NCBI GenBank assembly: GCA_902826615.1
Contig: CADEFN010000002.1
Coordinates: 874,671 to 938,670, forward strand
Direction: 5' to 3'
Source of the DNA: an uncultured Gemmatimonadota bacterium
GTDB lineage: Bacteria > Gemmatimonadota > Gemmatimonadetes > Gemmatimonadales > Gemmatimonadaceae
Length of the DNA: 64,000 bases
Program-made: the position numbers and the translations under genes
The notes under the pieces: generated by a model
Told to the model about the DNA's origin: nothing
Seen by the model: only the letters and a program-made list of their open reading frames with translations
Database searches by the model: none
Part shown: positions 41,360 to 46,444 of the stretch, piece after piece
Layout: the number at the start of each line of letters is the position of its first letter
Numbering within the stretch: position 1 is the stretch's first letter

Positions 41360-44300
41360 TCACCCGCTGCGCGATGCGACCCGCCGACGCCCGGCCTCGG
41401 CCCGGCGCACCTGGGGAGAAAAGCTGGTATCTGCCTTGGCCAAATTGCGCAGAACGGCAGAGAAACCGGTCAATGCCGCACCTTTGTCACCGCGCTTTTC
41501 TGACAACTCGGCAAAGCGCAGCTCGGCCGTGGTGCGGTACATCAGGTCAGTGAGCTGCAGGTCGGGAAACGTTTCGAACCAGCGCGCCGCCTCGGCATCA
41601 CGTCCAAGCTCTCCCAGAAGTTCTCCACGCAGAAAACGCTCGTGGGCCTTGGGATAGCTGGTCAACTCGGTCAGGTTGCTGTCTTCCTCGACACCCGGAA
41701 GGCCGAGTGTGGCCAGCGCCTCCACCGGTCGCTTGGCGTGCCGCAGCAACTCGGCGCGCAGAAGGCGGCCGAACGATCGGGAGAAAAGCAGATTCCGGTT
41801 GTTGGCCCATGACAGCGTGAGCAGCGAGTCCGCATAACGAGCCACAGCGGCGGTGTCTCCCATGCGCAGCCTCAGCAGGCCGAGCAGATACAGCCGTCGC
41901 GGCGGGTAGATGCTGCCCGACGGCAGGGAGTATTGACCGGGGCCCACACTGAGGTCCATCGGCGGCGTGCCGAGGATCCCCTGCTCCAGCTCCTTCAGAG
42001 GAGCGACCGAGCCTGGCGCAAACGGCAGCGTGGCCAGCATGGTGCGATACTCCAGCGAACGCGCCGGGGTGAGCACATCGTTAGGCTCGAGGGTGCTCAT
42101 GGCGGCGTTGGCCTGACCGATGGCCATGAGGTGTGCGGCGTGCACCAGGTGAGCCTGGCGCCGCAGAAATGGATCAAAGGGCGGCAGCTCCAGGCGGGCG
42201 AGGAGACGCGCCAGCACCTCGGCGTCACGGGTGTGCACCGCGATCGCCCACACCACACCGCGTGCATCGCGGGAACTCAGACGAGGCAGGTTTTCAAAGA
42301 AGGCCCGCATGGCCACCGTATCGCGCGTGGCAAACGCTTCCAGCCCGCGCACCTCCGACACCTCCGCGGAGTCGGGGCCCAAGCGCAGGAGCCGCGCCGC
42401 ATACTCGGTCACACGGGCCGTGTCGCCAGCCGTGGCCGCCAATCGTACCAGATGACTCAGCGCACCAACGTTGTCCGCTTCAAACCGCAGGACCTGCTCG
42501 AATGGCGCACGGGCCTCGAGTGCGGGACGCCCAAAGACCGGACCCCAATGAAAAAGCACCTCGCCCAGGTAGAAGCTGGCTTCAACGTCGGCGGGGCGGG
42601 TGCTCAGCACTTCGCGGTACCGCTGCTCCGCGTCGACGGCATCACCTCTCAGATAGGAGCGCCAGGCGCGAAAGAGTATGCGATCGCGTTCCGGCACGTT
42701 TGTCCCGTGCCTCACCGCGGCGTCGGCCAGTGAGTCTGGTGGCAGACCAGGCGGAAGCCGCGACCATGTCAGCGCGTTGCTCAACCGGTACAGCGCGACT
42801 GCGAAGGTGCTATCCGCGCTGACGGCACCGCGAAACGCCTCGATGGCCTCGGCAAAACGGCCACGCTGAAACTCGTGTTCGCCCGTCAGATAAAGCCGGA
42901 GTGCAGGCAGGGAGTTTGTGGTGCGCGCGGCCAATCCCTCGAACGCGGCCCCCGATTGGCCGGGGAGACCAGCGATGAGCTGGAGCGCCACCTGATCGAC
43001 CACCGCGAAGTAATCGCCTCGGGCCACGCGCGCATGCGCACGCGCCAGCACCTTGCGGCTCGACGACTCGTGCAGGAGGGCTCGAACATCGAGTGAGTCG
43101 GCAGTTGCCTCGATATCTCCGCTGACAAAAAGCGATGCCCGCAGGGACGTGGCCACGGTACGGAGCCGCTCGTCCATCCCGCCACGTTCGCCCACGTTGG
43201 ATTGCGCCGGAGTAGCACCAAGCAGCGCCCGCGTATCAACAAGTCGCGAATCGCCGACCTCATCGAGCGTGGTGGCTACCAGACGCGCCATACCCTCACC
43301 AAGGCTCTCGTCGGACGGTGCCCCATGTACCGCGAAGGGAAAGACGGCCAGCGCACTTTGCGACTCAGCGCCTGAAGATGCCGTGAAGCGCGAAAAGCCC
43401 TTGGTCAGCGCCGCGGTAGCCATCGCACCAACCAGCAGCACACCCACCACGCTCAACGAAAGCGCGCCAACTGCATCTTGCCGTTTGCTTGTCCGGGCCG
43501 GAACGGCAGGTTGGTGCACTCCGCGGGCGAGGCTCGTCTCTGGTGCTGGAAGTGGCACAGGGTCGCTGCTCTCACGCTGCGTGTCGTGGACACGCGCGGC
43601 CGCAACGTCTGCCGTCGCCACACGTTTGGGGGACGCGACCTCAGGCTGCCGCGTCCGCTCACGAATGGACTCGGCCAGGGCGACTGTCGGGCCCGATGGC
43701 TCCAGCTCATAGGTGCGCCGGAGGTGTTCTCGAAAGGTGTGATAGACGCGGAGGGCACGGGCGCTATCGCCGGCGCGCTCATGTGTCTCCATCAGCTGCC
43801 GAACGACGGCTTCATCGTCGGGCGCGAGCGCATGTGCTCGCTCTGCCCACCCCAGGGCACCACCCGCGTCGCCCGCTGAGCTTGCAGCGGAAGCCAACGC
43901 CAGGGCGGCGTTTGTACTCGCTTCGCGCACACGGGTTCGCTCGCGCGACAGCCAGTCATCAAAGGCGGGGGCGTCGCCAACGACAAAGCCATCCAGCAAC
44001 TCCGACCGGGACAACTCCAGCGCCTGTTGCGGGTTCCCGCTCGCCATGGCGGCGTCGAATTCCACGAGGTCGCACCAGACAAGGTCCGACTGCACACCGA
44101 GCTCGTCGGCCCCCCGAGCGACGATCACCCCGTCGCCGAGCGCCTTCCGGAGAAAGTAGACCGCAGAGTTCAGGGCATCCCTTGCCCGCCGCTCGTCGAG
44201 CTCCGGCCAAAACAGGGCCCGGAGCGAGTCTCGACGCCGAAAACCACGTGGAGTGGACGCGAGCAAATAGACGAGGAGGGCGGCTCGCTTGGGCTGAGCG

Positions 44301-44377
44301 AGTACGGAGTCGAGGCTCAGTCCTCCAGGGTCGCGAATGTCGAGCGCGCCAAAAACCGTTACGCGAAACCGCGTCAT
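41360..44377 (-). CDS. Membrane-tethered SARP/BTAD-type transcription regulator with TPR region
   Basis: 1005 residues. N-terminal OmpR-like winged helix (~1-95: FGALDIRDPGG, QPKRAALLVYLLAS, FRRRDSLRALFWPELDE), then BTAD helical domain (~100-245: CDLVEFDAAMASGN, WAERAHALAPDDEAVVRQLM, YELEPSGPTVALAESI). A linker leads to one membrane helix (~300-322, VGALSLSVVGVLLVGAMATAAL), then a presumably periplasmic part: an SLGEGMARLVATTLDEVGDS segment like adenylate-cyclase-associated TolB-N regions, followed by a long TPR array (~480-1000). Unlike soluble Streptomyces SARPs, this would sense outside and bind DNA inside, like CadC/ToxR. It is divergent from the kelch lipoprotein, with tandem repeats in between. 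Confidence 0.87.
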   Translation of the reverse strand: MTRFRVTVFGALDIRDPGGLSLDSVLAQPKRAALLVYLLASTPRGFRRRDSLRALFWPELDERRARDALNSAVYFLRKALGDGVIVARGADELGVQSDLVWCDLVEFDAAMASGNPQQALELSRSELLDGFVVGDAPAFDDWLSRERTRVREASTNAALALASAASSAGDAGGALGWAERAHALAPDDEAVVRQLMETHERAGDSARALRVYHTFREHLRRTYELEPSGPTVALAESIRERTRQPEVASPKRVATADVAAARVHDTQRESSDPVPLPAPETSLARGVHQPAVPARTSKRQDAVGALSLSVVGVLLVGAMATAALTKGFSRFTASSGAESQSALAVFPFAVHGAPSDESLGEGMARLVATTLDEVGDSRLVDTRALLGATPAQSNVGERGGMDERLRTVATSLRASLFVSGDIEATADSLDVRALLHESSSRKVLARAHARVARGDYFAVVDQVALQLIAGLPGQSGAAFEGLAARTTNSLPALRLYLTGEHEFQRGRFAEAIEAFRGAVSADSTFAVALYRLSNALTWSRLPPGLPPDSLADAAVRHGTNVPERDRILFRAWRSYLRGDAVDAEQRYREVLSTRPADVEASFYLGEVLFHWGPVFGRPALEARAPFEQVLRFEADNVGALSHLVRLAATAGDTARVTEYAARLLRLGPDSAEVSEVRGLEAFATRDTVAMRAFFENLPRLSSRDARGVVWAIAVHTRDAEVLARLLARLELPPFDPFLRRQAHLVHAAHLMAIGQANAAMSTLEPNDVLTPARSLEYRTMLATLPFAPGSVAPLKELEQGILGTPPMDLSVGPGQYSLPSGSIYPPRRLYLLGLLRLRMGDTAAVARYADSLLTLSWANNRNLLFSRSFGRLLRAELLRHAKRPVEALATLGLPGVEEDSNLTELTSYPKAHERFLRGELLGELGRDAEAARWFETFPDLQLTDLMYRTTAELRFAELSEKRGDKGAALTGFSAVLRNLAKADTSFSPQVRRAEAGRRRVASRSG

Positions 44378-44408
44378 GTGCTCCAGAAGATCAAAATTCT
44401 CGACCCGA

Positions 44409-44441
44409 TCAGTGTCAGGTCAGCGACACGTCAGGGCCGAG
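44409..44441. promoter_or_regulatory. Three tandem 11-bp repeats, candidate SARP operator
   Basis: TCAGTGTCAGG (44409), TCAGCGACACG (44420) and TCAGGGCCGAG (44431) follow each other without gaps; seven of eleven positions agree in all three (TCAGnGnCnnG). A fourth partial copy, TCATGCC, starts exactly 11 bp on (44442). Direct repeats at helical (11-bp) spacing are how SARP/OmpR-type winged helices bind. On the minus strand the last repeat is 8 bp from AGAATT (44395-44400), the usual repeat to -10 distance of SARP promoters, and the regulator starts at 44377. Autoregulation and control of the kelch gene are inferred. Confidence 0.6.
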
Positions 44442-44453
44442 TCATGCCTGCTG

Positions 44454-44477
44454 CGTACCGTGCGGAAACAAGGTACG
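44454..44477. repeat. Inverted repeat CGTACC-N12-GGTACG
   Basis: Perfect 6-bp arms (44454-44459 and 44472-44477) with a 12-nt spacer, 75 bp upstream of the kelch lipoprotein start and next to the tandem 11-bp repeats. It may be a second operator or part of the 5' leader. Too short to exclude chance. Confidence 0.35.
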
Positions 44478-44551
44478 GCGCCGTGTCGGCCAGCTGCAAT
44501 TGAGTGCCGAAGAGCCGGCGCTGCGCGAAAACTCTTCCGAAGGAGCTGACC

Positions 44552-46444
44552 ATGGGTGTGCAGGATGCAATTGGACGGGCGCGGGTCGCCGGCGCCTTGG
44601 CGTGGGGGCTGGCAGTAACCCTCGCGGGATGCGCGGATCTGCCTCAACAGGTGGCCGGTCCCGAGCGTGGACCAATCCGTCCCGATCGGGCGATTGATGG
44701 GGTTGTTACCACGGCGGGGAACGCGTGGGCGCCGGTGGCTCCAATGCCGCAAGCAAGGTCGCACCATCGCGCGGTGACGGTGAACAACATCATCTACGTC
44801 ATCGGGGGCGTAGGCGGGATGGGTGCGCCGAATCCCTCGGTACGCGCCTACGACCCCGCGACGAACATCTGGAGTGTGCGGGCGTCGATGCCGTCGGCGC
44901 GTGCGGACATGCACGGCGCCGTCGCCATCGGGTCAACGATTTACGTGGCTGGGGGGCGGGATGGGACCGGCGCGTGGACGGGGAGCCTCTTCCTTTACAA
45001 CACCGTCACAAACACCTGGTCGTCTGGCGCACCCGTGCCCGCGGTTGGCGGCTGCGGTGGTATGACGGTCATGGGGTCCTTCATTTATGTGGGCAACGGC
45101 TGCAACAGCACCGGAGTAACCTTTGGCTTCTTTCGTTACGATCCCTCCACGAACAGCTGGACCACGCTGAACTCGGCCGGAGAGTTTCACAGGGCGGGGG
45201 TGATGTTCACGCTTGGCAACGAGGTGGTGTGGTTCGGGGGATCCACATCGGGGGGCCCGTCGGGTGATGGCGAGCGATACAACCCGACGACCAACACGTG
45301 GCGTTACATCGGCGGAGGCACGGCGCGCGCGGGCTTCGCCTTCGGGCTCGTGAATGGTATCCCGCACGTGGCCGGGGGCTTTGATTTTGCCGGACCACTG
45401 CTGAGTGCCGAGTACTACGACCCGGCAGGCAACGCATGGTTTGGTCGCGCCGCGCTGCCGCTCAGTGTCACCTACGCGGCATCTGCCGTCGCGGCCGGAA
45501 AGCTGTATCTGTTTGGGGGAGAGCCGCTTGGCGGGCGGGCCCAGACCACGGCGTTGTCGTTCACCCCTGGTGACTACTGGCTGACGCGGGCCCCCATGCC
45601 CACGGCCCGCGGATATCACGGCCTGGCGCTGGCCGGCAACCTGGCATTTGCCGTCGGCGGTCGTGTGGCGGGAAGCAACACGGTGTTGACGGTGAACGAA
45701 GCGTACGATCCCGCCACGGACACCTGGAGTCCGCGCGCACCCATGCCGTCCGGGCGATGGGCCGCAGGAACAGCGTCGTTGAACGGGAAGGTGTATGTCG
45801 CGGGCGGCTTCTCCACCGGCACCACCGCCGCGCCGACGGCGACATTGTACGAGTACACCCCATCTACAAACTCGTGGCTGCAGCGCACATCGATGCCGAC
45901 CGCCATTGGCTTCACGGCCATCGCCGCGCTCAACGGCCGGCTGTATGTGAACGACGGGGGTGACGGAAGCGTCAACACCTTTGGCAAGAACTGGTATGTG
46001 TACAATCCGGGCACCGATACCTGGTCGTCCGGTGGCCAGTCACCGGACGGCTTTGCCCAGGGAGCGGCTACCAACCTGCTCGGCAAAGTGTTCGCCGTCG
46101 GCGGCTTTGGTCCTGCGCTCTCGCTGCAAAGCAACCTGAACATCTTTGACCCGGCCACGGGGTTCTGGAGCACGGGCACGCAGATCCCGCACGCGCTGTT
46201 CGGCCAGACGGCGCGCAACGTGCTGGGACGGCTGTACGTCACCGGGGGCTCGGACCAGCTGGGCAACAAGTCCGCCTTCCTGGACATTTACGACCCACCG
46301 ACGGGCGTGTGGAGCGCCGGTATGGCGTTGCCACTCGCCCGTTCGCATGCCAGATCGTTTGCCTTCAGCAATCAGATGTTTGTCATTGGCGGGTGGCCCG
46401 ATCCCACACCGGCCACGGGGGCAAACTCGGTGTACATCCCGTAG
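44552..46444 (+). CDS. Kelch-repeat lipoprotein (12 repeats)
   Basis: 630 residues, ribosome site GAAGGAG ahead of ATG 44552. Lipoprotein signal ending AVTLAGC-A. I count twelve kelch units of ~48 residues, each with a hydrophobic strand ending G-G (IYVIGG, IYVAGG, FIYVGNG, VVWFGG, IPHVAGG, LYLFGG, LAFAVGG, VYVAGG, LYVNDG, VFAVGG, LYVTGG, MFVIGG) and a YDPATNIWS-type turn. Twelve units would make two six-bladed propellers. There are no catalytic features; ligand or glycan binding at the envelope is inferred. It is divergent from the membrane-tethered SARP regulator and probably its target. Confidence 0.9.
   Translation: MGVQDAIGRARVAGALAWGLAVTLAGCADLPQQVAGPERGPIRPDRAIDGVVTTAGNAWAPVAPMPQARSHHRAVTVNNIIYVIGGVGGMGAPNPSVRAYDPATNIWSVRASMPSARADMHGAVAIGSTIYVAGGRDGTGAWTGSLFLYNTVTNTWSSGAPVPAVGGCGGMTVMGSFIYVGNGCNSTGVTFGFFRYDPSTNSWTTLNSAGEFHRAGVMFTLGNEVVWFGGSTSGGPSGDGERYNPTTNTWRYIGGGTARAGFAFGLVNGIPHVAGGFDFAGPLLSAEYYDPAGNAWFGRAALPLSVTYAASAVAAGKLYLFGGEPLGGRAQTTALSFTPGDYWLTRAPMPTARGYHGLALAGNLAFAVGGRVAGSNTVLTVNEAYDPATDTWSPRAPMPSGRWAAGTASLNGKVYVAGGFSTGTTAAPTATLYEYTPSTNSWLQRTSMPTAIGFTAIAALNGRLYVNDGGDGSVNTFGKNWYVYNPGTDTWSSGGQSPDGFAQGAATNLLGKVFAVGGFGPALSLQSNLNIFDPATGFWSTGTQIPHALFGQTARNVLGRLYVTGGSDQLGNKSAFLDIYDPPTGVWSAGMALPLARSHARSFAFSNQMFVIGGWPDPTPATGANSVYIP

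Follow-up and report, generated by a model that had tools for sequence, protein, structure and literature searches.

The window, a 64 kb stretch of DNA, contains two divergently transcribed genes, one encoding a regulator with BTAD and TPR domains and the other a kelch-propeller lipoprotein. The original prediction had placed three contiguous 11-bp units, together with a partial fourth in the same phase, between a SARP/TPR regulator and a kelch lipoprotein, and both the array and its location were confirmed. The features of the locus are as follows.

41360..44377, minus strand: SARP-family regulator gene, 1005 aa (BTAD PF03704, 1.2e-14; hydropathy; AlphaFold model)
44378-44551: intergenic region of 174 bp between the divergent BTAD/TPR regulator and kelch lipoprotein genes
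44408..44414, plus strand: distal heptamer ATCAGTG, an optional fourth unit (sequence)
44419..44425, plus strand: heptamer GTCAGCG (sequence; leave-locus-out model)
44430..44436, plus strand: heptamer GTCAGGG (sequence; leave-locus-out model)
44441..44447, plus strand: promoter-proximal heptamer GTCATGC (sequence; leave-locus-out model)
44456..44461, plus strand: putative -10 of the kelch gene, TACCGT (family -10 at offset 8; site top-ranked in the window)
44540..44545, plus strand: RBS of the kelch gene, AAGGAG (sequence)
44552..46444, plus strand: kelch-propeller lipoprotein gene, 630 aa, the putative target (Kelch_1, 1.1e-65; lipobox)

The contiguous units start at 44409 (TCAGTGTCAGG), 44420 (TCAGCGACACG) and 44431 (TCAGGGCCGAG) and are identical in 7 of 11 columns (TCAGnGnCnnG), while the partial fourth unit at 44442 (TCATGCCTGCT) retains TCA in phase. 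When divided into heptamers and spacers, the plus strand reads ATCAGTG tcag GTCAGCG acac GTCAGGG ccga GTCATGC ctgctgcg TACCGT. No other three-unit array of period 11 with at least seven identical columns is present within the 64 kb, and first-order Markov resampling of the 174 bp matched the quality of the array in 2 of 20000 cases. A resampling figure of 220/3000, which allowed any period from 9 to 23, is not comparable with this value because longer units provide more columns. A search of Rfam gave zero matches in 44300-44700. We conclude that the 11-bp repeats at 44378-44551 are real. The downstream kelch protein possesses the lipobox LAGC, with the lipidation cysteine of its lipoprotein signal peptide at Cys27.

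Relatives of the regulator are present in 59 of 60 related genomes. For comparison of upstream regions we fetched those loci that, among the matches listed, gave an alignment starting near the N-terminus; the 80 named loci obtained by N-terminal alignment belong to the Gemmatimonadota, except for a few records titled as Rokubacteria or Chloroflexi MAGs. A first set of 94 loci yielded 87 upstream regions, 24 of which contain arrays of three units at period 11 in which 5 or more of 7 columns are identical, compared with 0-3 at the other periods from 7 to 24; autocorrelation at lag 11 reached a z score of +8.8, all other lags being at or below +1.8. The scan of related SARP loci in the phylum that had been proposed with the original prediction was extended to an enlarged set (174 loci, 171 SARP starts, 157 non-redundant upstreams forming 124 clusters by similarity), and the repeats recur here as well, with period 11 found in 46/157 upstreams, 1-6 upstreams for periods 6-10 and 12-24, and a lag-11 z score of +11.0. 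The same periodicity persists after similarity clustering (32/124, other periods 1-6). The likelihood calculated for period 10 is inflated by overlap of the 11 columns. Since period-11 arrays recur upstream of SARP genes, related loci are not devoid of repeats, an absence that would have refuted the original prediction.

The arrays also have a defined orientation. When arrays were called without any information on the -10, their divergent flank revealed A in 42/49 and T in 42/49 at fixed columns, corresponding to a NANNNT pattern that starts, on the divergent strand, exactly 8 bp beyond the final heptamer. A joint model gave the heptamer GT[CG]ACGG followed by the -10 [TC]ANNNT (A 0.91, T 0.94), and at a posterior above 0.9 it identified operators on the divergent strand in 77/157 upstreams and on the SARP strand in 2/157, although with a looser threshold, set at 99% of the null, SARP-strand matches were also obtained in 17/157 of this training set. 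In a cross-validation in which half of the clusters were used for training without -10 information and the other half were scored, 94 of 186 calls had NANNNT at offset 8 (calls span four repeats, so that one locus may count up to four times), the next most frequent offset being 19 (27 calls), which equals 8+11; a -10 peak on the opposite, SARP side was absent. A geometry test that makes no use of heptamer sequence and requires only period 11 and a gap of 8 detected 34/124 loci on the divergent strand, compared with no more than 5 for any other period and 4/124 on the SARP strand. With a model trained on 123 upstreams other than that of the window, scores of at least 15 were reached in 41 of the 123 SARP upstreams (which are training data) versus 0.31 expected, and at 21 of 1.82 million positions in background DNA of the same loci. 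Operator matches were observed at 37/69 loci with a divergent neighbour versus 2/15 with a same-strand neighbour (p 0.005). No operator was recognised in 70/157 loci, about half, including L006, the best full-length tblastn relative of the window regulator (35%).

A held-out set was assembled from 60 loci of other genomes in the phylum, giving 57 starts and, after removal of 10 similar sequences, 47 upstreams. These loci agree with the training set, with a weaker effect. Period 11 is again the most frequent (6/47; other periods 0-3) and the autocorrelation peaks at lag 11 (z +2.6). At a threshold of 10.7, the frozen model detected matches on the divergent strand in 9/47 and on the SARP strand in 4/47, and the geometry test with a gap of 8 gave 7/47 divergent versus 5/47 SARP-strand loci; some held-out arrays thus face the SARP gene. 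Two of these loci (L183 and L207) have CTGATCG heptamers in the same 11-bp/8-bp frame and a third (L201) has heptamers of the CTGATCG or a related type. Judged by their sequence, the CTGATCG-type heptamers represent a reading code different from GTSACGG. Several held-out loci contain other heptamers and therefore the sequence model does not transfer to all subfamilies.

At the window site, TACCGT starts exactly 8 bp past the proximal heptamer on the plus strand. A model trained on 123 other SARP upstreams, without the window locus, placed 44419 (plus strand) at rank 1 among all positions on both strands of the 64 kb, with a score of 16.6 and a runner-up at 14.85. What the window heptamers have in common with the GT[CG]ACGG consensus of the family is mainly GTCA, and a fourth heptamer, such as the distal ATCAGTG, scores in 9/48 independent arrays of SARP loci. 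From the end of TACCGT to the kelch start codon there are 90 nt, the median over 46 partners being 76.5. Transcription of the kelch gene would start about 7 nt past the -10, which would place the two proximal heptamers near -38 to -21. The SARP promoter geometry that had been predicted here was therefore found, but not on the side proposed: the prediction had assigned it to AGAATT on the regulator side, whereas the relatives favour the divergent strand (77 versus 2 of 157). Read on the minus strand, AGAATT is indeed preceded at 8 bp by three heptamers that end in CTGA, yet this hexamer has G at position 2, where the family -10 has A (0.91), and we reject it as the main promoter because no -10 peak is observed on the SARP side across the relatives. 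Assignment of the kelch lipoprotein as the likely target was supported; TACCGT at 8 bp faces the kelch gene. An inverted repeat, CGTACC/GGTACG (arms 44454-44459 and 44472-44477), overlaps the putative kelch -10 and start; it is possible that this represents a site for a second regulator or a chance occurrence.

Searching the source genome for further targets with a degenerate pattern returned the window site and one site with two mismatches. A reversed control pattern likewise gave 2 matches, and for this reason the second site, taken alone, carries no weight as evidence. An operator-like sequence is present at L176 (G000:C4:295088-295130), comprising GTCACCG, CTCACGA and CTCACAC, then 8 bp and TAGGCT; about 5.5 kb separate it from the start of L002, another SARP gene of the source genome, and a lipobox ORF follows. 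This could be a SARP target that is not adjacent to its regulator, a possibility raised by a pattern search in which the control pattern gave equally many matches.

The genes on the divergent side frequently encode lipoproteins. A lipobox is present in 20 of 41 independent partners with strong operators versus 16 of 155 other ORFs from the same loci and the window (odds ratio 8.3, p 2.5e-7); the latter control replaces a value of 1/45 that was based on another start rule. We scanned 66 partners, consisting of 65 of the 69 partner references plus the window kelch protein (L009, L015 and L019, which have doubtful or cut ORFs, and L001, the window itself, were left out), and encountered 10 PD40 propellers, 5 PAP2 proteins and 4 kelch proteins including that of the window. 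Because of the lipobox enrichment and the mixed partner families, envelope-directed output appears to be common, with kelch as one case. A phylum-wide pairing of SARPs with kelch proteins was rejected, only 4/66 partners being of this type. The regulators at the other kelch loci (L122, L130 and L136) form one clade apart from the window regulator in a quick tree, and the kelch pairings may be of one origin.

The regulator has the domain order SARP, TM helix, TolB-N-like domain and TPR, with the following boundaries.

aa 1-244: winged helix and BTA domain (PF03704, PDB profile matches, fold match)
between the BTA domain and the TM helix: linker (low model confidence)
aa 302-320: TM helix (hydropathy)
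about aa 340-491: TolB-N-like domain (fold match to TolB)
about aa 480-1005: TPR superhelix (AlphaFold model)

A single-sequence phmmer search of the PDB with the regulator gave no match. A profile built from 34 relatives matches AfsR (8hvr_I, 6.4e-10) and EmbR (2fez, 1.2e-10) over the SARP domain. The AlphaFold model, calculated from 30 sequences (mean pLDDT 86.3), aligns with AfsR (Z 17.8, 231 residues, rmsd 3.9) and EmbR (Z 16.6), and its residues 340-491 align with TolB (2hqs_B; Z 14.9, 123 residues, rmsd 2.3); these alignments cover the families listed, and other families may match as well. In the Foldseek list unrelated TPR proteins occupy the top and EmbR appears at ranks 18, 27 and 37. 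As seen in both the predicted model and the sequence profile, the regulator is a SARP with an OmpR-type winged helix and a BTA domain. The membrane helix and the long TPR region expected from the original prediction correspond to a single uncharged hydrophobic 19-mer at aa 302-320 (GRAVY 2.24; model confidence is low at this helix) and to the predicted TPR superhelix, respectively. TolB is periplasmic, which fits a putative periplasmic location for the C-terminal half of the regulator.

Under a strict rule, requiring 19 residues without D, E, K or R, a TM helix is present in 66/148 SARPs of the phylum; as this criterion is strict, tethering is probably undercounted. The tether does not serve as a condition for the operator, which is found in 37/66 SARPs with a TM helix and 43/82 without. 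Other architectures are also represented: one SARP (L088:2495-5125) is fused to a PD40 propeller, and another (L116:3486-6197) combines a protein kinase domain with TPRs, has a divergent lipoprotein and a strong operator, and may phosphorylate itself.

With respect to recognition of the arrays, heptamer similarity rises with identity of the DNA-binding domain among 48 independent loci (rho 0.32, p 0.002), compared with rho 0.10 for spacer similarity in the same loci, and heptamer identity is 0.66 within and 0.545 between arrays. The correlation between domain and heptamer may arise partly from shared ancestry.

Taken together, we consider it probable that the segment is the SARP operator-promoter of the kelch lipoprotein gene, to which the SARP would bind side by side and activate transcription. 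Copies of the neighbouring membrane-tethered SARP would occupy three or four heptamers at a pitch of 11 bp, one helical turn each, so that the array covers the kelch promoter in its -35 region. The bound SARP would hold RNA polymerase on the TACCGT -10 located exactly 8 bp downstream of the array, in the way that AfsR acts at afsS. On the far side of the membrane, the sensor half, consisting of the TolB-N-like domain and the TPR superhelix, would set this activity in response to an envelope signal. It is unlikely that the array instead functions as an autoregulatory operator of the SARP gene with AGAATT as its -10, or is bidirectional. The CTGA-ending heptamers 8 bp before AGAATT and the minority of arrays that face the SARP gene (2/157 by posterior, 4/47 held-out) are consistent with such a role, but the population has no -10 peak on that side, the G in AGAATT departs from the family hexamer, and operator matches track the presence of a divergent neighbour.

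Pho boxes are 11-bp repeats too, containing CTGTCAT, and the resemblance of GTCAG/GTCAT to this sequence at equal pitch raises the question of binding by another tandem winged-helix regulator, for example a response regulator of the PhoB/PhoP type. At afsS, one and the same site serves both AfsR and PhoP, according to the available part of PMC10972967. We regard this as quite unlikely here, given that the arrays were found via SARP upstreams, are rare elsewhere in the loci (the 21 background positions at a score of at least 15) and vary between loci along with the SARP DNA-binding domain. A repressor site, at which the SARP would act from the -35 region to block the kelch promoter, is very unlikely: the repeats do cover this region, and the activator role at this locus is a predicted one, but SARP activators are characterised by an exact spacing of 8 bp to a loose -10, and a repressor would presumably have no need of a fixed phase to the -10. 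Strongly disfavoured, and highly improbable, is a functionless chance repeat or coding remnant. The array is admittedly short, with 7/11 columns conserved, but its rarity among resamples (2/20000), the top score that an independently trained model gave it within the window and its recurrence at other loci all argue against such an origin.

SARPs are known mostly as activators of antibiotic clusters in Streptomyces and its relatives. That dozens of loci in another phylum follow the promoter grammar of SARPs (11-bp heptamers, 8 bp, -10) shows that this grammar is old or widely shared, and it provides a ready rule for target prediction in a phylum of which few members have been cultured. Of 200 genomes sampled from the phylum, 188 encode BTAD proteins, so that many regulators not yet studied could be assigned targets by this rule. 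The loci point to an envelope-directed use of SARPs, with a membrane-tethered form, and the variation in heptamers makes it possible to test how DNA is read by these regulators. More tentatively, it is conceivable, although doubtful, that Gemmatimonadota possess phylum-wide envelope circuits in which SARPs that are tethered, or fused to TPRs, kinases or propellers, each control their own divergent lipoprotein through a private heptamer code in a fixed geometry, and sense the envelope, perhaps via their own lipoprotein or via Tol-Pal through the TolB-N domain. If this were true, SARPs would fill in the Gemmatimonadota the role of the ECF sigma/anti-sigma and SusCD regulators found elsewhere.

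Among the matches listed from open-licence literature, searched as titles and abstract starts, there was no paper on SARPs in Gemmatimonadota. A close parallel is AfsR of Streptomyces coelicolor and its afs box. Excerpts of PMC10936776 state that the 3' repeat of SARP operators lies 8 bp from the -10, that the distance between repeats is 11 or 22 bp, that the afs box extends from -40 to -19 and that the afsS -10 is CACTGT; the AfsR repeat sequence is given in the accessible text of PMC10972967, together with the overlap between this repeat and PhoP. Both 11-bp direct repeats and a 3' repeat 8 bp from the -10 are found at the window site and in the population, and the proximal window heptamers, near -38 to -21, would be placed like the afs box as described in those excerpts (PMC10936776). 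AfsR shares the winged helix and BTA domain with the window regulator (E 6.4e-10 over profile positions 3-227) and, in the portions of its literature at hand, likewise uses 11-bp direct repeats on the -35 region with 8 bp to a loose NANNNT -10. These portions describe AfsR as a NOD and TPR protein with kinase input, whereas the window regulator has a TM helix, a TolB-N-like domain and TPRs; the afs box has two repeats, in contrast to the three or four of the window, where the target is a kelch lipoprotein. The small and LAL-type SARPs ActII-ORF4, DnrI and PimR resemble the window system in having heptamers with 4-bp spacers, commonly three repeats, and operators between divergent genes (excerpts of PMC5930380 and PMC10972967; the former describes SARP heptamers as arranged in triplets, with a minimum of two), but they belong to Actinobacteria and act on antibiotic clusters, and PimR recognises CGGCAAG as opposed to the GTSACGG/GTCAGSG seen here. 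EmbR of Mycobacterium tuberculosis has the SARP fold (2fez/2ff4, Z 16.4-16.6) and, in the partial sources consulted, carries an FHA domain in the place of TM-TolB-TPR.

Regulators of the ToxR/CadC type combine a cytoplasmic winged helix, a single TM helix and an extracytoplasmic sensor. The predicted layout of the window regulator, with its winged helix, TM helix and sensor, would be alike, if the proposed topology is correct. The ToxR/CadC lineage is distinguished by a winged helix without BTA, whereas the DNA-binding part of the window regulator is a SARP with a BTA domain and a SARP operator code. TolB of the Tol-Pal system matches model residues 340-491 through its N-terminal domain, but the window regulator is without the TolB beta-propeller and has the TolB-N-like domain fused to TPRs behind a TM helix. 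The phylum, the tethering and the lipoprotein targets are new to the literature searched, while the geometry is that of the Streptomyces SARPs.
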